Shown: one piece after another, positions 13,101 to 63,895 of the stretch
Numbering within the stretch: the stretch's first letter is position 1
Layout of the letters: the number at the start of each line of letters is the position of its first letter
DNA from: Clostridiales bacterium
GTDB taxonomy: Bacteria; Bacillota; Clostridia; Christensenellales; Pumilibacteraceae
Reading direction: 5' to 3'
Assembly: GCA_022511445.1 (NCBI GenBank)
Contig: JAFLVE010000010.1
Span: forward strand, 15,387 to 79,386
Length of the DNA: 64,000 nt
Translations under genes and position numbers: made by a program
Notes under the pieces: model-generated
Database searches by the model: none
What the model was told of the DNA's origin: nothing
Seen by the model: the letters and a program-made list of their open reading frames with translations, nothing else

Positions 13101-16100
13101 TCCACTTGTTTTCCGCCTTCAGCTTGATAAAGGTAAAGGTGAACGAAATTCCCGTATACTTGCCGTTTTGGGCGACGGTCGCTTCCACGGTGTACTTGGT
13201 GGTGTCGTCGTCGCTGTAAGGCAAGGACATGAGGTATGCGTGCAGGCTGTTGCCGTAGTCGGACAGATAAACCGTGTTGCCGCCGACCTTGATTACGATA
13301 TTATCCTTATCATAGAGAGAGGTAAGTTCGACCTTAGCATAGCCTTCGCCGTCTTCGTACGTCCATTTAATCTCGCCGCCGTTTTCGACGTTTTTGGCGT
13401 CCCAATCGTTAACACGTCTTAAGACGGAGAGCGTTATCGTGGCGACAAGGTCGTTGTAATTACCCTCTTCGTCGATTACGGACGCCTTTATTACGTAGGT
13501 GCCGTATTCGAGCGACTTAAGATACTGTGCAAGGCTATTATCGTAGCCGCTCAGATCGATAGGACTGTCGTTATTTGTAAACTTGAGCTTGTCGTTAAGC
13601 TCTTTCGCCTTGAAGCTTATATCGTCGGCTTTAGCGTTCTCGCCGTACGTCCAAACCTCGTAAGTCCACTCGATTGTTCCGGGAACGGACCCGCCCTCAA
13701 TCCAATAGTTGGTCGCCTTTTGCGTCGAGAAGGAGAACGTGAGCGAAAGCCCCGTGTACTTGTTGTCCTCGGCAACCGTCGCAACTATGTTGTACGTGGT
13801 ATCGGAAAGCTCAAGCGACGCAAGGTAATCGTTAATCGACTGACCGGGCTCCAAAGTAATATCGAAACCGTTTCTCGTAAACTTGATGTTTTCCGAATTG
13901 TACTTAGCTAAAATAGTAATCGTTTTATTATCGCCGCCGTACGTCCAAACGATACTGTCGCCGTTTTTGACGGTATTCTCTTCGTCCCAAGCGTTTGTAG
14001 CCCTTACGACCTTGAGGGTAAAGGTAAAGGAAATATCCTTGTAGTGACCCGTAGTATCCGTAACGCTCGCCACGATAGTATAGGTGGCGTTACCGTTGGT
14101 GTTTGATTCGAGCGTTGCCAAATACTCGTTGAGAGTTCCGTCGAAAGACACGGAGCCTGCGTTTACGCTAAATGTAAGGTCCTCGCCGCGGTAATTGGGC
14201 GTGAGCGTTACTTGCTTATTGGTTTTGTCGGGATTGCCGTAAATCCAAGTAATCTCTTCGTTAGGATCGAGGTTGGTTGACCAGCCGTTTTCCGCCTTCG
14301 GTTTTTGGAAGGTGAACGTGAGAGTGAGTCCCGTATGCTGACCGTCCGCGGCAACCGTAGCCGAAATATTGTATACGGTATCGCCGTAAGGCAGCTCCTT
14401 GAGGTAGTCGTTGATTGTTTTATCGCTCAACGTAACGCTGCCGCTGCTGCTCGTAATAACGATAACAAGCTTATCCTTGAGGAAATGAGGAACAATCTTA
14501 ACCTCGTCGTATTTCTCGCCGTCCTTGTACGTCCAGGTAACGGTATCGCCGTCAAGCGAATCACCCTCTTCCCAATAGTTTTCGGCTATCGCTATATTGA
14601 GAGTAAACGTGTAAATAAGAGTGTTGTAGTGTCCGGCGGGATCGGCAACGGTTACGGTAATCTCGTAACGGCCCGCGCCGAGAGTCTTAAGATAATTGTT
14701 AACCGTTTGGGAAGTACCCAGCTTTACGGTAGTCGCGCCGTACGAAACGGTAAGCTCCTCTTTGAGGTATTTAGGCGAGAGTATTATTTCCTCGTTGTTT
14801 TCCTCGCACTTCCAGGAGTATTCCGACTTGGTGGTGGTGCTGTCCTCTTCCCAATAGTTTGCCGCAAACGCATACGTAAACTTAAAGGTAAACGTAAGCT
14901 CTTTGTAATACGCGTCCTCCGCCACTCTTACGACAACGTCCACACTGTTGCCGAGAGAAACGTTTTGCTTGAGATACTCGTTGATGTCGGTATCGACGGC
15001 GGTAACTCCTACGGTGTAAGTGAGCGTCGAGCCCTTATACTTAGGGCTGAACGAAATCGTCTTGTTGTCGGAAGCGCCGTATACCCAGGTGATTTCCTTA
15101 TCGGTCGTGCTGCCCGCTTCCCAAGTGTTTTCCGCCCTGTCGACGTGGAGCGTAAAGTCGAAGGTAAGGTCTTTGTAGTTGCCTTTTGTTTCGACAACGG
15201 TAACCCTTACGTTGTAGTCGCCGTAACCGAGCGTCTTAAAGTAAGTATTGATATTGTCGGAGTAGCCGCTCAAATCGACGACATTTCCGCCTACCGTGAA
15301 GGATATCGTGCCTTCTTGCGTAGGAATGAAAGTGAACTGGCTGTTATTAGCCGCGTCATAAGTCCAAGTAACGCTCGTGCTGCTTACGGTACTGCTGCTG
15401 TTCCAAGTGTTGGTTGCCTTTTGGTACAGGAGGTTAAAGGTAATAACAAGATCCTCGTAGTTACCCGTCTTCTCCACGAGCGTCGCCATAACCGTATACC
15501 GCGTGAGGTCGTTGGGCTTAAGGTTGTGCTCGAGATACGTATTTATATTAAGATTACCGAGCTCGACAGGACTGCCGTTTACGGTGTAGGAAATCGTACC
15601 TTCGTGCAACGCGTTAAGGCTTATATACTTAGAGGTGTTATCCGCCGCAAGGTAGTACGTCCAATCGATATCGCCTTCCGGAGTGCTTCCGCTCTTCCAG
15701 CTGTTAGCCGCTTTGAAGATGGTAAGCGTAAACTCTTTAGACATTGCGCCGTACTTATCGTCGGCGGGGACGTCTACTTTTATCGTGTACGTGCCTGCGC
15801 CGAGCTTGGCGAGATATTCCGCAACGGAGTTGCCGTAGTTTACCGTGGTGCCGCTTAAGGAAAGCGTGAGAGCGCCTTGGTTGTAAGTGGGAACGAGGTC
15901 GATTATCCAGCCGCCCTCTTCCGTCTTGTTGCCGTTTCCTCCGTTATAAGTCCAAGAGAACTCTTTCTTCTCGCCTACGGTATCGGTTTTCCAGCTGTTT
16001 CCGGTAGCGCTTATCGTTATCGTCGCAGTATAACGACTGCTGTCGTTTTCGAGACCGGTGTAGTTCTTTCCCTCTACGACGATTGCCGTAAGAGTGTACG

Positions 16101-52503: not shown

Positions 52504-53880
52504 ATGAAGCCTATTTATTTCCCCGAGCCGTTTCGGATTAAAAGCGTAGAGCCCATTAAGATTTTGACCGCCGAGGAGCGCGAAAAAAAGATTAAAGAGG
52601 CTAATTACAACTTGTTCTATCTCGCCTCGCGCGACGTTTACATCGACCTTCTCACCGACAGCGGGACGGGCGCGATGAGCTCCGCGCAGTGGTCGGGCGT
52701 TATGGCGGGGGACGAGTCGTACGCCGGTGCGGACTGCTACTACAAAGTTCAAGAAGCCGCAACGCGCATTTTCGGCATGCCGCACGTTCAGCTTGTTCAC
52801 CAAGGCCGCGCCGCGGAAAAGGTGCTCCTCCCCGTTCTTCTCGAAGGCAAAAAGTACGCGATAAGCAACATGCACTTCGACACTACCCGCGCCCACGTCG
52901 AGCTTGCGGGCGCGCGCGCAATCGACTGCGTCGTACCCGAGGCGCTCGACACGACAACCTATCACGACTTTAAGGGCAACATGGACTTATGCAGGCTCGA
53001 AAAGTACATAAAGGATCTCGGCGCGAAAAACATAGGCGTTATCATAATGACGATAACCAACAACTCTGCGGGCGGTCAGCCCGTGTCCGTGGAAAATATA
53101 CGCGCTACGCGCGACATGGCGCATAAACACGGCATTAAGTTTATGATAGACGCCGCGCGTTACGCCGAAAACTCGTACTTTGTAAAACAGCGCGAAAAGG
53201 AATTTAAAAACAGCTCGATCGCCGATATAGTCAAGGCCTCGTTCGAGGGCGCGGACTGCTTTACCATGAGCGCCAAAAAGGACGCTATCGTCAATATGGG
53301 CGGACTTATCGGCTGCCGCGACAAAGCCCTTTTCGAAAAAATCAAACAGCGCACAATCTCCTTCGAGGGCTTTATTACCTACGGCGGAATGTCGGGCAGA
53401 GATATCGAGGCGCTTGCCTGCGGGCTTGACGAGGGCATTGAAGAAAACTATCTGCGCTACCGCATAGGACAAATGCAGTATCTTGCGGCAAGGCTTGAAG
53501 ACGGCGGCATTCCCTTCCAAACCCCCGTCGGCGGACACGCGGTGTTTGTCGACGCCAAAAAGCTCCTCCCGCACATACCCTACTATGAGTTTCCCGCGCA
53601 GGCGCTTAGCATAGAGCTTTACAAGGAAGCGGGAATCCGCGCCTGCGATATCGGCTCGTACATGCTCGGCAACGACCCCGACACGGGCAAGCAATTGGAA
53701 GCCGAATTCGAGTTTACAAGGCTTGCCGTGCCCCGCCGCGTTTACACTCAATCCCACCTCGACGTTATTGCCGACGCGCTTATTAACATAAAGGAGCGGG
53801 CAAAAAAGATAAAAGGCTACAAAATCGTCGAGGAGCCGCCCATTCTCCGCCACTTTACCGCAAAGCTCGCGCCGCTGTGA
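52504..53880 (+). CDS. tnaA: Tryptophanase (tryptophan indole-lyase)
   Basis: This PLP enzyme cleaves L-tryptophan to indole, pyruvate and ammonia. At 458 residues it is close to normal length. PLP-site elements include [11 protein letters not shown] (about 98-108), [11 protein letters not shown] (216-226) and the Schiff-base Lys in TMSAKKDA (K259). The C-terminal [15 protein letters not shown] and [11 protein letters not shown] are tryptophanase-type. Tyrosine phenol-lyases, the closest alternative, differ at IGSYMLG. GGGAG precedes the ATG. It is a single gene with its own promoter and terminator and no tnaB-like permease beside it. Indole production would make the organism a possible source of host-active signals in the gut. 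Confidence 0.93.
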
Positions 53881-53910
53881 TTTTTATTAATTGAATTATT
53901 ACGACACGAA

Positions 53911-53939
53911 AAATCGGCAAGCTCGCTTGCCGATTTTAT
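53911..53939. terminator. Bidirectional terminator between tnaA and the beta-helix gene
   Basis: AATCGGCAAG and CTTGCCGATT form a perfect 10-base stem with a CTCG loop. The plus strand continues TTATATTT and the minus strand TTTCG, so it can serve both convergent genes. Confidence 0.85.
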
Positions 53940-53964: not shown

Positions 53965-55905
53965 TTACAGTCCGAGCTTTTCTTTAATCTGTTTATAAAG
54001 GTCGGTTTGTATTATTTCCGTAAGCGGTGCGGAGGTGGCGCCCTTTCCGTCGACGCGCAAAAAGATTTCGTCCGTGGTCGCTTTGGCGCCGAAGGACGGA
54101 ACCGAGTTCTCTACGAAATAGTTCCCGTCGAAGTTGTAGCTCTCTACGCCGTCGCCGTTAACGTAAGAGTTCGACTCGTAAACGTTTGCTCCGCACACTC
54201 CGACGATATTTCCGTAGTAGTTAAACTCGCCCGAAATGCCGCCCGTAAAAATGCTATTCGTGACTCCGCCGCCGTAGTACGCGCCGTACAAGCTAAGCTG
54301 CTGAATAAGCCCGCCGATACCGCCCACGCACGAATTCCCCTCGCCGAGAGTTGCGGAGATATTACTCTCGCTTAAGCAGTAATCGGCAATACCGAAGTAT
54401 ACGTAAAAGCCGTTCCAAGCCGCCTGACTCATACCGTAAATGCCGCCTGCATAGGCGTACTTTGCCGTGACTGAAATATCACCGCTCGAATAGCAATACT
54501 CCGTTCTGCCGTACGACTGGCCGGCTATCCCGCCGCATATGGCAAAGTCGGCGCCGGTAACGGAAAGATTGCCCGTGCTTTTCGAGCGCTCGACCGTCCC
54601 GACGTTTTGCGATACGACGCCCGCCACGATAGGGCTCCAATCCTTGTCGTCCGAAACCTGCGAAAGATTAGCACTACTGACTATGCCGGACAGCACGGAG
54701 TTATTTATATAGCACGCTCCCGCAAGGTCGAACGTATCCGCCGATATATCGCCCTCCACCGAGCTGTCCTCTATAAGCCCGTTATTTACCCCGGCAATCC
54801 CGCCGAACGTTGCGTTGACGGCTATCTCGCCGGAAAGGGAAAAGCTTGTGTAATTAACGGTACAGTTTTTAATCTTGCCGTATGCGGAATCGCTCGAGTA
54901 AGCGTTAAACGCCGCAATCCCGCCGAAAACGGTCTCGCTCGTGCCGTCCGCGCCCTCGCCCGAGGCGTACGCGCTTCCCTCTGCGTTTACCGTAACGCCG
55001 TCGAGCGTGCCGTAGTTATAAACAGTGACAAACGCCGAATGGTCGGAAAACTCGGCGTCCGCCGTCACGTTTACGGTAATATCTTTAAGCACGGTGCTGC
55101 CCGAGCACGAGGTGAAAATAGGCGTGCCGTTCGTCTCGATTGTAAGATTACTCATCTTGCCCCCGAACTCGCCGAGAGACGCGCCCTTTTCCAAAACAAT
55201 CTTATGCCCGCCGCCTATAAAATTACAGGAAGTGGATTTTACCGAATACCGCGCGGGTATAACTATATCGTTTTTAAGCGCGTACGTTCGGGACTTTGTA
55301 AAGTCGATTTGCTCCACCGTAGATACGGCGATTCCGTATTTATTTAGATAGGATACGACCGATACGGGCGTGACGACGGAGACGGCGACGAATGCCGCGG
55401 ACGCCGACGCGATAATCGCTATAAGCTTTTTTTCGGCGCGGCGGAGCGGTCTTCTGTCGATATTTATTTTGTCGCCGTCAAACTCTATCCCGAGCGAATA
55501 CTTGACGTAGTAAGCTTTTTTAAGCCGCGACTTTATCTCCTCGGTAGGCGCGAAAAGCGGATACAGCTTTTTAACCTTACTCGTTTTATCGAGGATAAGG
55601 AGCATTTCGATAGGCATCACCACGGCGTCATAGTACAGTCTTAAGCACTTGCCCGCCGCTTTGGAAAACTTATCTACCGCGCTTGCCGGCTCCACCCGTA
55701 AATCCTTCCAAGAGGAAACGGGAATAAACTCTTTTTCGTACGCGGCGAGGATTTTTTTGGAGGAAAAAAGATAAAGTAGCGACAGCACGGGAAATCTGCC
55801 CAGTCGGTAAAATCCGCACTCGGCTTTTTCCATAAGAGCGTTAAACGCCGCAACGTCGTCGCTTTGGATTGCGCTTAGCAATTCTTTTTCCGTTATCTCG
55901 GGCAT
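53965..55905 (-). CDS. Membrane-anchored GLUG/beta-helix protein with cytoplasmic N-terminal domain
   Basis: 646 residues from the ATG at 55905; a longer in-frame GTG start lies inside the gene before it. The first 160 residues are helical and presumably cytoplasmic (MPEITEKELLSAIQSDDVAA). A transmembrane helix (LIAIIASASAAFVAVSVVTPV, about 164-186) follows. The remainder is an extracellular beta-helix with GLUG-like turns: FGGIAAFNAY, GGIAGVNNGLIEDS, CGGIAGQSYG, VGGIGGL. Its stop-start junction with the coiled-coil gene is TGATAATG, so translation is coupled. It is the last gene of a four-gene cassette. GLUG repeats are common in surface proteins; what this one binds is unknown. Confidence 0.78.
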   Translation of the reverse strand: MPEITEKELLSAIQSDDVAAFNALMEKAECGFYRLGRFPVLSLLYLFSSKKILAAYEKEFIPVSSWKDLRVEPASAVDKFSKAAGKCLRLYYDAVVMPIEMLLILDKTSKVKKLYPLFAPTEEIKSRLKKAYYVKYSLGIEFDGDKINIDRRPLRRAEKKLIAIIASASAAFVAVSVVTPVSVVSYLNKYGIAVSTVEQIDFTKSRTYALKNDIVIPARYSVKSTSCNFIGGGHKIVLEKGASLGEFGGKMSNLTIETNGTPIFTSCSGSTVLKDITVNVTADAEFSDHSAFVTVYNYGTLDGVTVNAEGSAYASGEGADGTSETVFGGIAAFNAYSSDSAYGKIKNCTVNYTSFSLSGEIAVNATFGGIAGVNNGLIEDSSVEGDISADTFDLAGACYINNSVLSGIVSSANLSQVSDDKDWSPIVAGVVSQNVGTVERSKSTGNLSVTGADFAICGGIAGQSYGRTEYCYSSGDISVTAKYAYAGGIYGMSQAAWNGFYVYFGIADYCLSESNISATLGEGNSCVGGIGGLIQQLSLYGAYYGGGVTNSIFTGGISGEFNYYGNIVGVCGANVYESNSYVNGDGVESYNFDGNYFVENSVPSFGAKATTDEIFLRVDGKGATSAPLTEIIQTDLYKQIKEKLGL

Positions 55906-55907
55906 TA

Positions 55908-56624
55908 TCAGTCTTTTTTGATTTTCACCTTTCTGTCCGCCGCCCACTTATCGAGAACGTCGAACAAATACTGCTCGTTGACCGTGCTCCCCTCGACAAT
56001 CTTTTTAAGGAGCCCCGTCGTCTCGGAGAACATGGCGGTAAGCGTTGCTATATCGTCGCTCTGCCTTGCGACGAGCTTACTTAATTCCTCGTTTTCCTTA
56101 CGAATGGATTCTATCTTTTCGGCGTTTTGTTTTAGCACCGAGCCGATATCCTTGTTAATAAAATCGCTTATTTTCTCCACGTTGGCGTTGTAGCCGTCCA
56201 GCGATTTCTGTAGCCCCTTTAGGTCGTACGACGCCGTTTTTTCGGCGATAAGCGTATCGATTCGCTCTATCTGATTGCGCGCGCTTTTTTCTATGTCGCT
56301 AAGCGCGTCGATTTTTTCCACTACGGAAGAAAACCGCGAATACATTTCGGTTACGGCCTTAGCGTACTTTTCGCCCGACTGCGCGTACTCTTCTATTCTG
56401 CGGTTAAGCTCCTGCCCGCTCTTTGCCTGCGCGGCGAGCGCGGAGTGCACCTTTTCCAGTCTGTCCGCGGTGCCGCCCGAAAAGCTTCTACTAAGCGCGT
56501 TAAGATCTTCCAAAATCTCGGCATAGGTTACGCTTACATTGTGCAAGCTTTCCTGAACGGGCGCAATAAGGTTGCGGTAGGAAATAAAGCTTTCAATAAG
56601 TTCTTTTACCGAATTGTCGTTCAT
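55908..56624 (-). CDS. Coiled-coil protein of the release factor/helicase cassette
   Basis: 238 residues, almost entirely helical and charged, with no membrane segment or signal. Long heptad stretches run at about 55-115 (DRLEKVHSALAAQAKSGQEL) and 130-215 (NAEKIESIRKENEELSKLVA). It resembles a generic apolipoprotein- or methyl-accepting-like coiled coil, and no family is recognised. It overlaps the helicase gene by 4 bases (ATGA) and couples to the beta-helix gene by TGATAATG. Its place between a cytoplasmic helicase and a membrane protein suggests a structural linker, which is inference. Confidence 0.75.
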   Translation of the reverse strand: MNDNSVKELIESFISYRNLIAPVQESLHNVSVTYAEILEDLNALSRSFSGGTADRLEKVHSALAAQAKSGQELNRRIEEYAQSGEKYAKAVTEMYSRFSSVVEKIDALSDIEKSARNQIERIDTLIAEKTASYDLKGLQKSLDGYNANVEKISDFINKDIGSVLKQNAEKIESIRKENEELSKLVARQSDDIATLTAMFSETTGLLKKIVEGSTVNEQYLFDVLDKWAADRKVKIKKD

Positions 56625-58990
56625 GATTTTCTCCTCAAACTCGCGTTTGCCGACTTGATAGCGGCGGCAAGCTCTTTACAGTCGTTATTAAGTGTGTCGA
56701 GTATTATCTTTTTAGCGACGTCGTTATCCTCGACGAGCGTGTAAAACCTTACTATCTCGGGGTCGAGCGCGCTCCCGCCCTCTCGGCATGCGTCCATTAA
56801 CGGGAAAAGCTTTTCGTCGCCCGAGCGGGTGAAGCACTCCCGCGCTTCGGCGTCCATGCCGTGCCGCCAATACTCTATGCCCGCGTCGCGGTACGCGCCG
56901 TAGCGCAGATACTTTTCGTGTACGGAAATGTACACAAGCTTTTTCTCGCGGAGCTCGTCCGCGGAAAGTCTGTCCGCGGCGGAGCGCGCATTGTCGTACT
57001 GCTCGAGCGCGCAGAAAGCTTCGATTCGCTCGATAAACTCGTCGTCGTCGAGCTCTATCCGCCCCGCAATGCTTTTCAAAAACGATACCGCGCCGTCGCG
57101 GTTTTTGCGAACGAAGCACTCGTCGAAAAGCTTGTCGAAAAACTTGGGGTGGTCCGATTCGGCAACGACAAGATACTGCCTTGCGCGCGAAACGCCCACG
57201 TAAAAAAGATTGTAATAGTATCTGAAAACCGAGTTTTCGTCGGCGGTCTTTCTGTTAAGGGTCATGTCGTTAAGCTGCCGCCATTTATCGGCGCTGTCGC
57301 TTAAAATATCTACGAGGATAACGGTGCCGCGCTCCAAGCCCTTTATCTCGGCTACCGTCAAGACCTCTATTTTCCCGAGCGCTTTTTTAAGCCGCTCCTT
57401 CTTTTTTTGCGAGCCGACGACGACGGTAAGGTTTTCGAACTGCTTGTTTTTAAGCATATCGGCAAAGCCCTTATCCTTTACGAACACCGCCTCGCTTTGT
57501 AGCGGCGACGGAACGCTCTCCCCTCTTAAAACAAAGCTGTGCGTGCCGAAGCGGGAAATGTTCATCTCGCCCAGCTTTTCCGCGATTCTTTCTATCTTTT
57601 GCGTGCTGCGGTAATTGTGCTTCAGCTCGCTTACGCCCGTAACGTCGCCGTACATAAGCCGCTTAAGATAGCCGAAGTTAAAATACGACGGGTTAATCAT
57701 CTGGAGCGCGTCGCCCACGCAAAACAGCTTTCTGCACAGCTTTTTCATAAGGCAAAGGTTGACCTGCGTAAAATCCTGCACCTCGTCGATTACGCCGAGC
57801 GAGTATTTGCATTCCGCAACCTTTTCCATTACTCGGCGGCTCATAAGGTTGTTGTCGAGGTATCCGCGCTTAGCCATAAAATCGGCATAGTCCACAGCCA
57901 CCGAATAAATAACCTCGCACTCGCGGGGTGTAAAGCTGTCCCGCCGCGCCGCAACGTAAGCCTCCTTAGTCATCATCTCTTGCGGGGAATCGAGCTCGTA
58001 CTTTCCGAAAATCATGCCGTAGATTTCTTTATAGATTATCTCTGTCGAGACGCTTTTTATCTTGTCGATTGCGCCCGCTATATGCGGACTGACCCCGCCG
58101 CCGAGATACTCTGAATTAAACACGCTCTCGCCCGCGGCGCGCGCCGCGTCGAAGTATTCCGAATAGATATCCTCTATAAGATAATAGTCCACCTTTTCGG
58201 CAAGGTATGAAGAAATGCGCTTAAGCGCGGAAATAATCTCGCCGTCGCTCTCCACCGAGAACATAATCCCGAGCTTGTTTTCCACCGCCTTTTTGTGGTT
58301 GCCGTCCGTAAACACGACGTCGCCGCGCTCGTACGCCGATATAAAATCGACGATGTTTTTTAAAAACAGCTCCACCCTGTTTTTGGTCTCGACAAGAAGT
58401 CCGCGCGAAAAGGTGGTGTAAAGCACCTTGCCGCGATAGTTTCGGCAAGCGCAGTAAACGATTTTTTCTACGCAAACGTTGGTCTTGCCGCTTCCCGCAA
58501 CGCCCTGAACGAGCATGTTGGAATCCTCGGTCTCCACAATCCTGCGCTGGGTATCGTTAAGGTACGGGAAGTTAACTATTCCGTCTGAATCGGACACGAG
58601 ATACAGCCTTTTTAAGTCCTCCGATTTCGGGGGCTCGTTCGCCCTGTCCATCGTAACCGTAACGGCGCCGCGCGAAACAAAAGCCTGAAGCCGCCTGTCC
58701 ACGCCGCCCTCGCCCGATAAAGAGCTCTCGAAACTATAAAACACTATATCGCCCGAGTAGACGTCCTTTCGGCAAACGTAAAGAGTGTATAGCCCGTCCT
58801 CCGTCACCACCTTTCCGCCGCCGTCGGGAATTGAAATGCTCGACTTGAATATGGCTTCCGCGACGCGCGAAACGAACGCGTCGATTGCAAGGATCTTTCG
58901 CGTCAAGCTTATAAACCCCTCCGTCTTATAAAACCTTTTGTCGGACGACAGAGCGATTTTTTGCATGTCTACGGTAAAGCTTACTGACAT
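56621..58990 (-). CDS. UvrD/Rep-family SF1 helicase with helical C-terminal extension
   Basis: 789 residues. The N-terminal 140 residues are unassigned. Helicase motifs follow in order: Q motif LNDTQRRIVE (144-153), Walker A GVAGSGKT (163-170), Walker B LGVIDEVQDF, motif III FCVGDALQMINP, motif IV ELKHNYRST, motif V VLTVAEIKGLERGTVILVD, and motif VI LFYVGVSRARQYLVV. The last 170 residues look TPR-like (YDNARSAADRL, YRDAGIEYWRHGMDAEA). The 2A/2B region is short compared with UvrD or PcrA, so this is a specialised member and probably not the housekeeping repair helicase. It starts inside the release-factor-like gene (10-base overlap) and overlaps the coiled-coil gene by 4 bases. Confidence 0.88.
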   Translation of the reverse strand: MSVSFTVDMQKIALSSDKRFYKTEGFISLTRKILAIDAFVSRVAEAIFKSSISIPDGGGKVVTEDGLYTLYVCRKDVYSGDIVFYSFESSLSGEGGVDRRLQAFVSRGAVTVTMDRANEPPKSEDLKRLYLVSDSDGIVNFPYLNDTQRRIVETEDSNMLVQGVAGSGKTNVCVEKIVYCACRNYRGKVLYTTFSRGLLVETKNRVELFLKNIVDFISAYERGDVVFTDGNHKKAVENKLGIMFSVESDGEIISALKRISSYLAEKVDYYLIEDIYSEYFDAARAAGESVFNSEYLGGGVSPHIAGAIDKIKSVSTEIIYKEIYGMIFGKYELDSPQEMMTKEAYVAARRDSFTPRECEVIYSVAVDYADFMAKRGYLDNNLMSRRVMEKVAECKYSLGVIDEVQDFTQVNLCLMKKLCRKLFCVGDALQMINPSYFNFGYLKRLMYGDVTGVSELKHNYRSTQKIERIAEKLGEMNISRFGTHSFVLRGESVPSPLQSEAVFVKDKGFADMLKNKQFENLTVVVGSQKKKERLKKALGKIEVLTVAEIKGLERGTVILVDILSDSADKWRQLNDMTLNRKTADENSVFRYYYNLFYVGVSRARQYLVVAESDHPKFFDKLFDECFVRKNRDGAVSFLKSIAGRIELDDDEFIERIEAFCALEQYDNARSAADRLSADELREKKLVYISVHEKYLRYGAYRDAGIEYWRHGMDAEARECFTRSGDEKLFPLMDACREGGSALDPEIVRFYTLVEDNDVAKKIILDTLNNDCKELAAAIKSANASLRRKS

Positions 58991-59982
58991 AGTGCGTTTA
59001 GTCCGTCGATGTATGCGGCGGGCTCCTTAAGCGGAAAAGCTACGTCCGAAAACGCTTTCAGCCTGGTATCCGTCATCGTGCCCTTGGCATAATCGAACGA
59101 AATGGGAGTGTTCTTAGCTTTGTACTGCGAATATATATCCGCCTCGATACGGCTTTTTTCGGCGCGCTCCCGCGAGGATATAAGCCGTCTTTTTATGGTC
59201 TCGATTGCGCGTTTTTTGTTTTCGAGCTGGCTCCTTTCGTCCTGACAAACGACGGTAAGCCCCGTAGGGATATGCGTTACGCGCACCGCGGTTTCCACCT
59301 TGTTTATGTGCTGACCTCCCGCCCCGCTCGAGTGCGTCACAGTTATCTTCAGCTCGTCGTCCGACACGGTTAGTCTTTCCTCTGCGGGCGTTACGGCAAA
59401 GCACAGCTCCTCCGTCCTTGCGCCGGACATATACACCCTGTGCGCGCCCGTAAGCGGCGAAAGCCTCGATATAATATCCTCACCCTCCGCGGTAAAGGAT
59501 ATTCCGAACGGACTGCCGTTTTTGCCGTGCTCGGTCTTTTCGTCCGTCAAAAAGCCGCCGCGGGAAATAATATATTCTTTAATCATGGCGGAAAACCGTA
59601 CGCCGAGCTCGGAGGGCGCGGTAAACTTAAAGCGAAGGAGAGCGCGCTCTACAGTATGCTTACAGCCGAGCTCGTCCGATATAGCCGAAGCGAGTTTCGA
59701 CGCGTCGCGCTTTAAGGAGGATATCTCCGCGTAAAGCTCGTCGCGCTCGGAGTCGTTACATTCTTGGATAAGCGCCGCCGCCTCGCGCTCGGAATCGAGA
59801 AGCTTTTTAAGCCGCTCGAGCTTGTCCGCAATCGACTTAAGCTTGTTGTACTCGGTAAGAACGGAAAGATAATGCGCCTTGTCCGCTTGAACCTCGGGAT
59901 ATTCCAAAAGCTCCTCCGCTTTACGAAACTCCTCCGCCGACTTTTCCGCCGCGTCTATTATCTCGCCGTAAATTCCGTACAT
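58981..59982 (-). CDS. Release-factor-like GGQ protein lacking stop-codon-recognition motifs
   Basis: 333 residues from the ATG at 59982, fixed by the promoter; an upstream in-frame start lies ahead of the predicted transcript. A helical N-terminal PCRF-like domain is followed by a shortened domain 2 and an intact domain 3 with SSGAGGQHINKVETAVRVTH (GGQ at 222-224) and CQDERSQLENKK. RF1 has [21 protein letters not shown] at the position where this protein reads TGAHRVYMSGARTEELCFAVTP. The PxT/SPF tripeptide and HTSA are therefore missing, as is the GTGGDEA block. It may hydrolyse peptidyl-tRNA on stalled ribosomes without reading a stop codon. First gene of the helicase cassette. Confidence 0.82.
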   Translation of the reverse strand: MYGIYGEIIDAAEKSAEEFRKAEELLEYPEVQADKAHYLSVLTEYNKLKSIADKLERLKKLLDSEREAAALIQECNDSERDELYAEISSLKRDASKLASAISDELGCKHTVERALLRFKFTAPSELGVRFSAMIKEYIISRGGFLTDEKTEHGKNGSPFGISFTAEGEDIISRLSPLTGAHRVYMSGARTEELCFAVTPAEERLTVSDDELKITVTHSSGAGGQHINKVETAVRVTHIPTGLTVVCQDERSQLENKKRAIETIKRRLISSRERAEKSRIEADIYSQYKAKNTPISFDYAKGTMTDTRLKAFSDVAFPLKEPAAYIDGLNALCQ

Positions 59983-59988
59983 AGTAAA

Positions 59989-60017
59989 ATTATACCACTT
60001 TTTTATTCGGCTGTCAA
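59989..60017 (-). promoter_or_regulatory. Perfect-consensus promoter of the release-factor/helicase cassette (leaderless)
   Basis: TTGACA (60012-60017), a 17-base spacer and TATAAT (59989-59994) on the minus strand. The ATG follows the -10 box after only six bases, where transcription should begin. There is no ribosome site, so the first gene is probably read from a leaderless message. Confidence 0.88.
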
Positions 60018-60324: not shown

Positions 60325-62397
60325 TTATTTATTCATTACCGTCTTTTTTATCGAGTTAAGGAGCGCGGGAATATCGACGGGCTTATTGAGGTGTGCGTTC
60401 ATGCCGTTTTTGGCGGAAAGGCGCTTGTCGCTCTCAAACGCGTTTGCAGAAAGCGCGATAATCGGGATATTGGCAATCTCAGGATTATCGAGGTTGCGGA
60501 TAGCCTCCGTTGCCTGCCAACCGTCCATAACGGGCATTTGGATATCCATAAGAATAAACAGATATTCACCGGGCTGCGCCGCCTGCATTTTGTCGACGGC
60601 AATCTGACCGTTTTCGGCGGGCTCGACGGTTAAGCCCAAGTCCTCCAAAAGCTCGGTTTCTATTTCGAGGTTGATTTCGTTATCCTCCACAACGAGGATT
60701 TTCTTGCCCTTAATAAACTCCTCAACGTCGTCGGTGTTCGACTCGTCGTCCTTCTTTTCGGAGAGACGGAAGCTTACGACTACGGTAAACGTACTGCCGA
60801 CCCCGACTCGACTTTCCGCCGTAATGGATCCGCCCATTCCGTCGATAATTTGCTTTGCGATAGTCAGCCCGAGCCCGCTTCCGAACACGCCGCTGTGCGT
60901 GGAGTTGTTTTCGCGCTCGAAGGGCTCGAATATTTTTTCGAGCGACTCGGGCGCAATGCCTATGCCGGTATCGCGCACGACAAAGCGGTAGGCGGCAAAC
61001 TCGGACGAAGCGGACGGGATTTCCTCAACGGTAAAATCGACCGTTCCACCCTTTGCGGTGTACTCGACGGCGTTGTTTATAATGTGACCGAGCACCTGTT
61101 TAAACTGGTCCTTGTCGACGTAGACCTCGGGATAGTTGACGGCGCTGTGGTCAAGCGCGAAGTTTATTTTCTTTTTCTTGGCGACGGGAAGAAGCGCGTC
61201 GTAAATCTCGGCGATAATATCCTTAAGATTGCAAACCTCCTCGTTAAAGTGGAAGTCCTTGGATTCGAGGTACGAAATTTCGAGCACCTTGTCCACTAGA
61301 TCCAAAAGCTGCTTGCCCGCTTTTTGAACGCTGTCGAGATGCTTTTCGAGCTTCGTCTTATCGTCTAAACTCTTTTTTGCAAGCTCGAGATAACCGAACA
61401 GCGCGTTAAGAGGGGTGCGCATATCGTGCGACATGTTGGAAAGAAAGGTATTTTTTGCCACGTTTGCAAGGTTGGCGTCGTTAAGCGCGTTTTCGAGAAT
61501 AGTCTTTTGCTGCATCTCCTGCTTAATCTCTTCCTCGATGTTTCTCGAGCCTATAACCACCTGCGAAATATGTCCGTTGTTTTTAACGTCGACTATACGA
61601 AGCTGCATGTACTGAAGCTCGTCGCCGTAAACGCACATAAAGTTTGCGTAGTACGTGTTGCTGCCCACAAGGTTAGCGCGGATATACTCGGGCGAAAGAA
61701 TCTCGCGTATCCGCTCCCTGTCGTCGGGATGAACCCACGAATTAACAAAGTCCTCGGAAAGCCAAGAATAAATCTTGGATTGCATCTTTCCGTCGAACTG
61801 CTTGGAAAGTCTATTGCTGAACCGATACGGATAAACCGTGTCCGTGTCGAGATCGACGTAAAGAATGGAATCGTAGTTAACGCTTAGCGCCTCGATAACC
61901 TCCATTCTCTGCAAATGCTCTCGCTGCTGTTTTTCGATTTTGCTCGTCGAGTCGGTGATAAATACGTAATAAATATCGCCTACGTTGGTTTGAATGTAAT
62001 GCCCGTAGTCCTCGACGTATCTAAGGTTTCCCTTTTTGGTAAGTATGCGGTATTCGACGTAATCGAGGTTGTTGCCACCCACGGTAATCTGCTGATGAAT
62101 GCTCGTCTGAACGTCCCAATAATCGTCGGGATAGACCACGCCGCGGAACGAATTAGACGTGTACTCTTTAAACTCTTCGACGCTGTCGCACTCGAACATT
62201 CTTACGAGCGCCGCATTCGCATAGATTATCTCCTCGCTATTGTTGGAACGGTAAATAAGAAACCCGCCCGGCAGATGATCGAGAAACTTCCTGAACTTGT
62301 ACGCGGTCTCTTTTTGCTCCGGCGTAAAGTCTCCATCCCCGTGCGAAATGAGTAGCGGAATCATCTCCTCGATTAATGCGTACTCTCTTTCATTCAT
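60325..62397 (-). CDS. Cytoplasmic PAS-PAS hybrid histidine kinase with receiver domain
   Basis: 690 residues from the ATG at 62397 (GAGGG ribosome site); a TTG six codons upstream has none. There is no membrane segment. Two PAS folds at about 40-150 and 165-285 (GGFLIYRSNNSEEIIYANAA, SILYVDLDTDTVYPYRFSN) precede HisKA with H324 in FLSNMSHDMRTPLNAL. An ATPase domain follows (N box HIINNAVEY, DTGIGIAPE, FGSGLGLTIA), then a receiver (VVEDNEINLEIE, D618 in LMDIQMPVMDGW). Such proteins pass phosphate on to a separate Hpt or regulator, and none is adjacent. It is common in gut Clostridia. It has its own promoter and terminator. Confidence 0.92.
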   Translation of the reverse strand: MNEREYALIEEMIPLLISHGDGDFTPEQKETAYKFRKFLDHLPGGFLIYRSNNSEEIIYANAALVRMFECDSVEEFKEYTSNSFRGVVYPDDYWDVQTSIHQQITVGGNNLDYVEYRILTKKGNLRYVEDYGHYIQTNVGDIYYVFITDSTSKIEKQQREHLQRMEVIEALSVNYDSILYVDLDTDTVYPYRFSNRLSKQFDGKMQSKIYSWLSEDFVNSWVHPDDRERIREILSPEYIRANLVGSNTYYANFMCVYGDELQYMQLRIVDVKNNGHISQVVIGSRNIEEEIKQEMQQKTILENALNDANLANVAKNTFLSNMSHDMRTPLNALFGYLELAKKSLDDKTKLEKHLDSVQKAGKQLLDLVDKVLEISYLESKDFHFNEEVCNLKDIIAEIYDALLPVAKKKKINFALDHSAVNYPEVYVDKDQFKQVLGHIINNAVEYTAKGGTVDFTVEEIPSASSEFAAYRFVVRDTGIGIAPESLEKIFEPFERENNSTHSGVFGSGLGLTIAKQIIDGMGGSITAESRVGVGSTFTVVVSFRLSEKKDDESNTDDVEEFIKGKKILVVEDNEINLEIETELLEDLGLTVEPAENGQIAVDKMQAAQPGEYLFILMDIQMPVMDGWQATEAIRNLDNPEIANIPIIALSANAFESDKRLSAKNGMNAHLNKPVDIPALLNSIKKTVMNK

Positions 62398-62466
62398 AGG
62401 TAAAACCCTCGACAAAACGTTTAATTATAGAAGCTTACTACATAGGTTGTTTTTTAGCAACCATTC

Positions 62467-62642: not shown

Positions 62643-63344
62643 TTATTGCTGTAAAATATAACGCGATTTCTTTTCCACTTGGAACTTCGCTTTGTCTTTC
62701 CAATCGAGCTTTTCCGTCCACTCATATTGTGTAGGCAAAAATGATTTAATGTTCCCTTTCATCGCTTCAAAAGGCTCGTCGTAACAGATAATCACGCTCG
62801 GTTTAATGCGCTTTAACATCTCATTATATCCGAGCATAAAATCATCTTCGCAGTTTTCTCTGTAATATGTGCAAACCGCCACAATCGAGCCCTGTTCTAT
62901 TCCGTCAAAACAAAAGTCAAACGTGCGCTCATCGCCCCATGCAACAGTAGGTATAACGCGCAAGCCTTGGCTTTGCCAATATGCCCCACACCACCTGTTT
63001 TTGAACACGTTTTCTATCTGCAACGCAAGCGGCATGTCGGTAAACAAGCTAAAATCGGGCGTAAGCAGTGCATAATATTGTTGCAGCTTTTCTATCTCGT
63101 CGTCGGGTTTATCGTACACCTTGTCGAACTTCCAATCGTGCATAAAAAAATGCAGTGTTTTATCTGCATTCCATCTATCATTTGTTTTGGCTTTGGTATA
63201 GTCTAAAAGCTTTATTTTGGTTATGTCTATCTGTTGTTTGCGCACAATCGGTATATCGTATTTGCCTGCGCCTTTATACTCATTACGCACCAAAAGGCGT
63301 TTGTGCTTTGCTTTTTGAATTTCGTATTCGGTTAATTCTTTCAT
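62643..63344 (-). CDS. DUF4417 protein
   Basis: 233 residues, soluble. The C-terminal two thirds match the DUF4417 family: LLTPDFSLFTDMPLALQI, NRWCGAYWQSQGLRVIPTVA, WGDERTFDFCFDGI, GSIVAVCTY and MLKRIKPSVIICYDEPF. The family is frequent on plasmids, phages and other mobile DNA of Firmicutes, and its function is unknown to me. AAGGAG precedes the ATG. It lies 17 bases after the zinc-ribbon gene and is probably cotranscribed. I see no convincing terminator between its stop and the kinase promoter. Confidence 0.85.
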   Translation of the reverse strand: MKELTEYEIQKAKHKRLLVRNEYKGAGKYDIPIVRKQQIDITKIKLLDYTKAKTNDRWNADKTLHFFMHDWKFDKVYDKPDDEIEKLQQYYALLTPDFSLFTDMPLALQIENVFKNRWCGAYWQSQGLRVIPTVAWGDERTFDFCFDGIEQGSIVAVCTYYRENCEDDFMLGYNEMLKRIKPSVIICYDEPFEAMKGNIKSFLPTQYEWTEKLDWKDKAKFQVEKKSRYILQQ

Positions 63345-63361
63345 GTTATTTACTCCTTATT

Positions 63362-63895
63362 CTAATCTTCGGGCGGAATATCGTAATCGTTTTTTCCGGC
63401 ACAAAACATAAAGCACGGGTGTACAACCTCGTCCCAAATGTCTTTAAGCAAGTGCCCGTTGATATTGGCTTTTTCGCGGAATTCGTTTACATGATTGTAT
63501 TCTTGCTTCATCTCTTTATTGCAAAAAACAACTATACAGTCGCCGGAGGCATACGCTTCAAAATCATTGCTTTTGAGTTTCGTATATACTTCATGCACTA
63601 AACCGTGATGCCAAAACAACATTTCTGAATAAAACATCAATCCGTTGATAAAATCTTCGAATGTCGCTTTAAATTTTTGCCCTGCTTTATACTGCTCTCT
63701 CGCGCGAGAAAGTGGTACAAGCATAGGATAGCTGATGCCTAATGTTTTATCTGTACGTTCATTATCTGCGCACTGCATCCAGCCGCAATGTGGACATTTT
63801 TCGCTATTGCCGTAATCATCGATAAAAGTAATTTGACCGCACACCTCGCACGGCACCGCATTATTATATTCGCTTGGATTATATTTCTTTTCCAT
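63362..63895 (-). CDS. Zinc-ribbon (CPCC-like) hypothetical protein
   Basis: 177 residues. The N-terminus has PCEVCGQITF and, 17 residues on, KCPHCGWMQC, a two-knuckle zinc ribbon like that of CPCC-family Cys-rich proteins. These are often found beside polymorphic toxins as candidate immunity proteins. A hydrophobic-aromatic middle (FINGLMFYSEMLFWHHGLVHE) and the C-terminus are unassigned. GAGGAG within the end of the preceding gene serves as ribosome site, and only 2 bases separate the two genes. An immunity role is therefore possible but unproven. Confidence 0.65.
   Translation of the reverse strand: MEKKYNPSEYNNAVPCEVCGQITFIDDYGNSEKCPHCGWMQCADNERTDKTLGISYPMLVPLSRAREQYKAGQKFKATFEDFINGLMFYSEMLFWHHGLVHEVYTKLKSNDFEAYASGDCIVVFCNKEMKQEYNHVNEFREKANINGHLLKDIWDEVVHPCFMFCAGKNDYDIPPED

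Follow-up and report, generated by a model that had tools for sequence, protein, structure and literature searches.

The 64,000-nucleotide stretch of Clostridiales bacterium contig JAFLVE010000010.1 analysed here (positions 15,387 to 79,386, forward strand, assembly GCA_022511445.1; hereafter the window) carries on its minus strand a conserved four-gene cassette encoding a release-factor paralogue (RF), a superfamily 1 (SF1) UvrD-type helicase (HEL), a coiled-coil-like protein (CC) and a membrane protein with a beta-helix (MEM). The release factor has lost the stop-codon loop of its family and kept the GGQ catalytic motif, the helicase motifs are intact, and a third release factor co-occurs with the cassette from genome to genome. 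The reading tentatively preferred, at a probability of roughly 45%, is that of a membrane-tethered module for ribosome rescue or translation quality control that works independently of stop codons.

Loss of the stop-codon loop in the cassette release factor

RF (58981-59982, minus strand; 333 amino acids) matches the Pfam families RF-1 (8.7e-27) and, at residues 17-109, PCRF (2.3e-5), and scores below the NCBIfam cut-offs for prfA (114.4 versus 423.25 bits), prfB (106.2 versus 370), release_prfH (81.1 versus 166.65 bits) and ArfB (44.2 versus 100 bits). Two further RF-1-domain genes in the same genome have PVT and SPF motifs and thus are RF1 and RF2, and RF is a third class-I release-factor paralogue.

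Motifs were compared in 70 cassette release factors, comprising the window protein, 68 complete copies located upstream of the helicase and one relocated copy (locus L096). The GGQ peptidyl-hydrolase motif is kept in all 70, and the PxT/SPF stop-codon motif of RF1 and RF2, whose loop is deleted in the window protein, is present in none. Stop-codon contacts are made by PXT, SP(F/Y) and GG, according to the available part of PMC1586002; at least 4 of the 15 decoding columns are gapped in each of the 70 proteins, the alignment being uncertain around the deletion, and the first-position GG remains in five. Judged from its sequence, the cassette release factor is codon-blind yet catalytic. Its length is mostly about 300-345 amino acids, with some distant copies shorter than that of the window and the shortest complete one having 208 (L046). 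In locus L069, an RF1-like gene with a PET motif (1836-2927) lies about 5 kb upstream of the cassette release factor.

Co-occurrence of a third release factor with the cassette

Fifty genomes with a completeness of at least 90% were hand-picked from the lists of HEL and CC matches, and those with a strong HEL match or a CC match were counted as cassette-bearing. A third RF-1-domain gene was found in 25 of 25 cassette-bearing genomes and in 0 of 25 cassette-free genomes, which have two such genes each (Fisher p about 1.6e-14, uncorrected for kinship); within the genus of the window the counts were 5/5 with the cassette and 0/9 without it (p 5e-4, likewise uncorrected). Genome G012, with 7% contamination, showed a fourth RF-1 match. 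In 22 of the 25 cassette-bearing genomes the third release factor is no more than about 4 kb from CC or HEL and shares their contig; in G115, G136 and G285 it is on a separate contig. Where it is not directly upstream of the helicase (L093, L094, L096, L097 and G115), a third release factor was found elsewhere and was loop-less in all five cases checked; the relocated L096 copy follows closely after the cassette and is encoded on the opposite strand. Distances among RF sequences follow those among HEL sequences (r = 0.98 across 58 loci, and 0.93 and 0.82 in two subgroups). The RF-1 domain on contig C11 of G136 (74708-75013) contains in-frame stops, possibly a sign of release-factor decay.

Recurrence and arrangement of the four genes

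The preliminary description of this DNA had proposed a tightly coupled cassette of a release-factor-like protein, a UvrD helicase, a coiled coil and a membrane beta-helix protein. All four open reading frames lie on the minus strand at the positions it gave, its naming of the genes proved correct, and its three junctions were recovered: a 10-base overlap between RF and HEL, a 4-base ATGA overlap between HEL and CC, and TGATAATG between CC and MEM.

A scan of named genome contigs yielded 111 relatives, nearly all marked as metagenome-assembled genomes and with titles including Clostridia bacterium, Clostridiales bacterium, Christensenella sp., Ca. Stercoripulliclostridium, Bacillota bacterium and uncultured bacterium; the analyses used the best 80 of the 111, these being loci found with part of HEL. 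In one-strand order, RF is present in 70 of the 80 loci, HEL in 80 (by construction), CC in 79 and MEM in 74, the missing CC and MEM genes falling at contig ends. Of the ten loci without RF upstream, six are truncated by the end of a contig; the other four offer room for the gene yet lack it there. Since RF stands upstream of HEL in 70 of 80 loci, the adjacency is not due to chance, as it would have been had the four families rarely been adjacent elsewhere; it is widespread within one order. Overlapping junctions are also common, being found at 44 of 70 RF-HEL and 56 of 79 HEL-CC junctions (median -4 bases), and CC and MEM are separated by a median gap of 13.5 bases, with overlap in 11 of 74.

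A strong HEL match was obtained in 15 of 121 genomes searched, that of the window included, and in 7 of 20 within its genus; in 22 of the 37 genomes with any match the matches were short helicase stretches (E 2e-5 to 9e-4), which were not counted as carriers. HEL is followed by CC and MEM in the 14 other genomes with strong matches, and only in G115 is it not preceded by RF; the cassette of G019 is split across two contigs, and that of G022 has an extra open frame between RF and HEL. Several of the 80 loci come from the same genomes as those searched here (e.g., L050 and G018), so that the two sets cannot be treated as independent. A small protein with two transmembrane (TM) segments was called after MEM in 23 of the 63 loci whose length allowed a judgement, a rough figure because the rule overlooks small hydrophobic frames visible by eye (e.g., L104, L111, L112, L116 and L124); 22 of these calls lie outside the clade of the window, and the remaining one (L054) is probably false.

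Within the order, CC was detected in 45 of 297 genomes, spread over 14 of 125 genera, and in a sample of the class (n=291) only in the genome of the window. A model of HEL, which in most genomes scored no more than four candidates, gave partial matches to the helicase core beyond that genome in 4 of 245 genomes of a class sample and 4 of 249 of a phylum sample; these scored 97-143 bits, compared with 1210 for the window protein. In three of eight distant helicase loci that were fetched (L158, L159 and L162) an overlapping gene, coiled-coil by eye, follows the helicase, and no RF match was found in the fetched stretches of these three, which suggests that the pairing of helicase and coiled coil is older than the partnership with RF and MEM.

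A predicted leaderless start for the release-factor gene

The cassette is preceded by the perfect promoter that had been noted before, TTGACA-17-TATAAT with a TG extension (59989-60017, minus strand), which scores 12/12 against the consensus. Five promoter-like sites were found compared with a shuffle mean of 4.8, so weight was given only to the perfect score and to conservation. The -10 box ends 6 nucleotides before the RF ATG, and the window mRNA is thus predicted to be leaderless.

A -10 box ending 4-9 nucleotides before the start was found at 45 of 70 RF starts (among them that of L054, whose RF is cut by a contig end) and at 25 of 502 flanking genes (p 7e-31), the spacing being exactly 6 nucleotides in 44 of the 45; for a TG-extended -10 box near the start the counts were 43/70 and 8/502 (p 6e-38). 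RF starts were taken near the start expected by the model and flank starts as the first in the frame, and because of this difference a generous control is also given, in which an ATG anywhere within the first 40 codons of a flanking gene was allowed (35/502 for the -10 box and 14/502 with TG). Among the other cassette genes a -10 box at the start was seen in 3 of 76 HEL, 0 of 79 CC and 1 of 74 MEM genes. A Shine-Dalgarno-like run precedes the start of 11 of 70 RF genes, 77 of 79 CC genes and 285 of 502 flanking genes. From these sequence features, RF starts are predicted to be often leaderless. Leaderless mRNAs are reported to be translated under stress (PMC8138138).

The helicase, coiled-coil and membrane proteins

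HEL (56621-58990, minus strand; 789 amino acids) belongs to the UvrD-type SF1 helicases and has the SF1 fold. Its motifs are intact, Walker A, DExQ, GDxxQ and the C-terminal motifs being invariant in 47 sequences; the structure alignments drew on 46 of the 75 full HEL rows and 48 of the 62 MEM rows in addition to the window proteins. Its NCBIfam scores are far under every cut-off (HelD, 34.6 bits versus 419), and its best match to PADLOC profiles of GajB helicases, at 4.2e-19, is a similarity at the level of shared helicase motifs. The N-terminal domain (residues 1-135; 58586-58990, minus strand) has no convincing sequence match in Pfam or the PDB, RelE/ParE included; an hhalign comparison made in looking for a RelE/ParE fold gave a probability of 6.5% to distant relatives. 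An all-helical region (residues 636-789; 56621-57085, minus strand) forms the C-terminus. By eye, the N-terminal regions of several distant HEL-like helicases have a RelE-like look, and two such proteins (L160, 4215-6974; L161, 3652-6456) carry C-terminal ankyrin repeats (Pfam Ank_2, 2.1e-6), so that an ankyrin-like domain is found in MEM in the system of the window and at the helicase C-terminus in these two loci.

CC (55908-56624, minus strand; 238 amino acids) is coiled-coil-like, with matches to coiled coils in the PDB and a conserved C-terminal stretch.

MEM (53965-55905, minus strand; 646 amino acids) was modelled with a mean pLDDT (predicted local distance difference test) of 93.4 as a helical, ankyrin-like domain (residues 1-150; 55456-55905, minus strand), one long TM helix, also indicated by hydropathy (residues 156-190; 55336-55440, minus strand), and a beta-helix (residues 200-646; 53968-55308, minus strand). 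Foldseek matched the beta-helix at a best E of 6.8e-4 with a query TM-score of 0.25, and a GLUG match to it was below cut-off; the ankyrin matches were weak (E 0.75 and 0.94), and the ankyrin label therefore rests mainly on the helix pattern. Hydropathy gave one TM segment in 60 of 67 complete MEM proteins, two in six and three in one. The membrane layout is predicted from the charge before and after the TM helix, with the N-terminus inside and the beta-helix outside. The ankyrin-like domain is the best conserved part and the beta-helix is more variable. Second MEM-like open frames occur near the cassette in L119 (17697-19733, minus strand), L128 (17659-19704, minus strand) and L078 (674-3406, plus strand), with weak profile matches (E 9e-13 to 4e-8).

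Neighbouring features in the window

Between MEM and a convergent tryptophanase-like beta-eliminating lyase gene (52504-53880; Pfam 5.7e-80) lies a perfect inverted repeat (53910-53937). It had been described as a bidirectional terminator, which is probable as a reading of the sequence; the terminator scan did not list the repeat. The tryptophanase-like gene adjoins the cassette also in G018 and G011, and not in the fetched stretches of G012, G001 and G015. Upstream of the cassette and on the same strand is a hybrid histidine kinase with PAS and receiver domains (60325-62415). A DUF4417 protein is encoded at 62643-63895, with a neighbouring protein that has a sub-threshold Cys_rich_CPCC match.

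Comparison with known systems

ArfB, ICT1 and C12orf65 are codon-independent GGQ hydrolases, and the cassette release factor likewise has GGQ. ArfB differs in being a short, single-gene factor with a special C-terminal tail, whereas cassette release factors are longer and most are in an operon. On the helicase side, HelD, PcrA/UvrD and Rep share the SF1 fold and motifs with HEL, which differs from them in its own N-terminal domain, its C-terminal helical region and its fixed partners. The rescue helicase HrpA is of a different helicase class and is not known to have a release-factor operon.

There is also a likeness to the PrfH-RtcB2 (RFH) operons, which, according to PMC1586002, PMC6514570 and PMC9223846, contain a GGQ-keeping class-I release-factor paralogue with an altered stop-codon region and are sporadically spread. 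In the cassette, however, the place of RtcB as partner is taken by an SF1 helicase together with a coiled coil and a membrane protein, and the stop-codon loop is deleted, with no SXY motif. PrfH also lacks N-terminal domain 1 (PMC1586002), whereas release factors in the clade of the window keep their N-terminal domain (PCRF). RtcB had no match in the genome of the window (G000) and was present in 8 of the 26 genomes with the cassette and in 6 of the 25 without it. The main text of PMC6514570 contains neither the word "helicase" nor "UvrD". An ATP-driven RNA helicase that rescues stalled ribosomes is known in HrpA (PMC13159725, available part), and with the PrfH-RtcB2 rescue operons (PMC6514570, PMC9223846) each half of the proposed system thus has a precedent. 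No description of a release factor combined with a helicase, or of this operon, was found in the literature searched, in which coverage of subscription papers was mostly lacking. The gene content matches no system tested, and the inferred mechanism is akin to that of release-factor-paralogue rescue operons; if the membrane and helicase parts are essential, this would set the cassette further apart from them.

Proposed function and alternative explanations

In the scheme that we infer for ribosome binding, protein contacts, the substrate of the motor and the trigger, RF would enter the A site of a stalled ribosome, and its GGQ loop would hydrolyse the peptidyl-tRNA with no stop codon being read. 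HEL, as an SF1 motor, would pull on the mRNA (or strip some other obstacle) and so clear the complex, and CC may bridge or regulate HEL. The ankyrin-like domain of MEM would anchor the complex at the inner face of the membrane, with the beta-helix displayed outside, and the small two-TM protein may be an addition in distant clades. The link between ribosome state, nucleic acid and envelope that had been suggested for these genes is still the leading idea, and the loss of the stop-codon loop together with the co-occurrence of the third release factor makes it more specific; the defence or mobile setting suggested along with it gained no support.

Several observations weigh against a rescue function. 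SmpB, MutS2 and RqcH were found both with and without the cassette, so that no unmet need for rescue is visible; the cassette is no replacement for them. Among proteins of solved structure, those closest to HEL in sequence are DNA helicases and HelD. In G136 the third RF-1 domain has two in-frame stops and CC is still present, and 25 of 70 RF starts are not leaderless by the rule used, most of them outside the close relatives of the window. Rescue alone, moreover, leaves an outward-facing beta-helix unexplained.

A bolder reading is that of a membrane-anchored surveillance machine of a new type, in which the codon-blind release factor and the SF1 helicase act together on membrane-stalled ribosomes, the beta-helix serves as the receptor for a trigger, and the leaderless start keeps expression going under ribosome stress. 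Such a machine, loosely like UPF1 and the release factors in eukaryotic nonsense-mediated decay, is unlikely.

A counter-attack or anti-phage module is rather unlikely. MEM would here sense an envelope event, HEL and CC would act on invading nucleic acid, and RF would free ribosomes damaged by ribotoxins or phage, as in PrfH-RtcB2. The patchy spread (of CC in the order and of strong HEL matches in the genus), the more variable beta-helix and the GajB matches are consistent with it, although the likeness to the UvrD-like GajB of Gabija is that of shared helicase motifs, and RtcB is absent from the genome of the window and not tied to the cassette. For the flanks, 110 of 121 selected nearest proteins of 110-900 amino acids were scanned, 11 being left out for belonging to a repeated family, ambiguous bases, an antisense look or being the L096 release factor itself. 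Flanking genes vary between loci; among the 25 of 138 families listed, chorismate synthase was found five times, BspA-type leucine-rich repeat proteins (LRR_5) four times and others at most three times, and the listed families are mainly metabolic. Twenty-four defence profiles match one flanking protein each, no GajA profile, the partner expected for Gabija, was among the PADLOC matches at 1e-15, and no defence island was seen around the cassette in these 110 proteins, considered without a random-flank comparison set. A single-protein scan of viral contigs, with a reach of close relatives only, gave no match. With flanks that are varied and mostly non-defence, a defence role is treated as a rival and not as the preferred reading.

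It is quite unlikely that the cassette serves in transcription or DNA conflicts, with HEL acting on RNA polymerase or DNA in the way of HelD or PcrA, and RF serving as a ribosome-side sensor that couples translation to it, since this leaves the partnership with a third release factor having GGQ in 70 of 70 copies, and the membrane protein, unexplained. A set of factors that helps to produce or insert large beta-helix proteins of the membrane or surface, with RF and HEL working on membrane-stalled ribosomes, is improbable: the operon does encode a beta-helix protein, MEM, most copies of which have one predicted TM segment, and the two-TM protein is called in 23 of 63 loci, but surface-protein neighbours are inconsistent (LRR_5 in 4 of 110 flanking proteins). 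That RF is a passenger functionally unconnected to HEL, CC and MEM, as its absence upstream in the four loci with room and its place on other contigs in G115, G285 and G136 might suggest, is very improbable given the loop-less third release factor in all five such genomes checked and the 25/25 versus 0/25 co-occurrence.

In summary, uncultured Clostridia conserve a gene system in which a third release factor, which has lost the stop-codon loop and kept its catalytic loop, is passed on together with a motor and a membrane protein. If the rescue or quality-control reading is true, bacterial ribosome rescue would in these organisms be coupled to the membrane and to a helicase, unlike anything in the literature searched, and the cassette raises the question of what role a codon-blind release factor has in cells given SmpB (and presumably also tmRNA), RqcH and MutS2.
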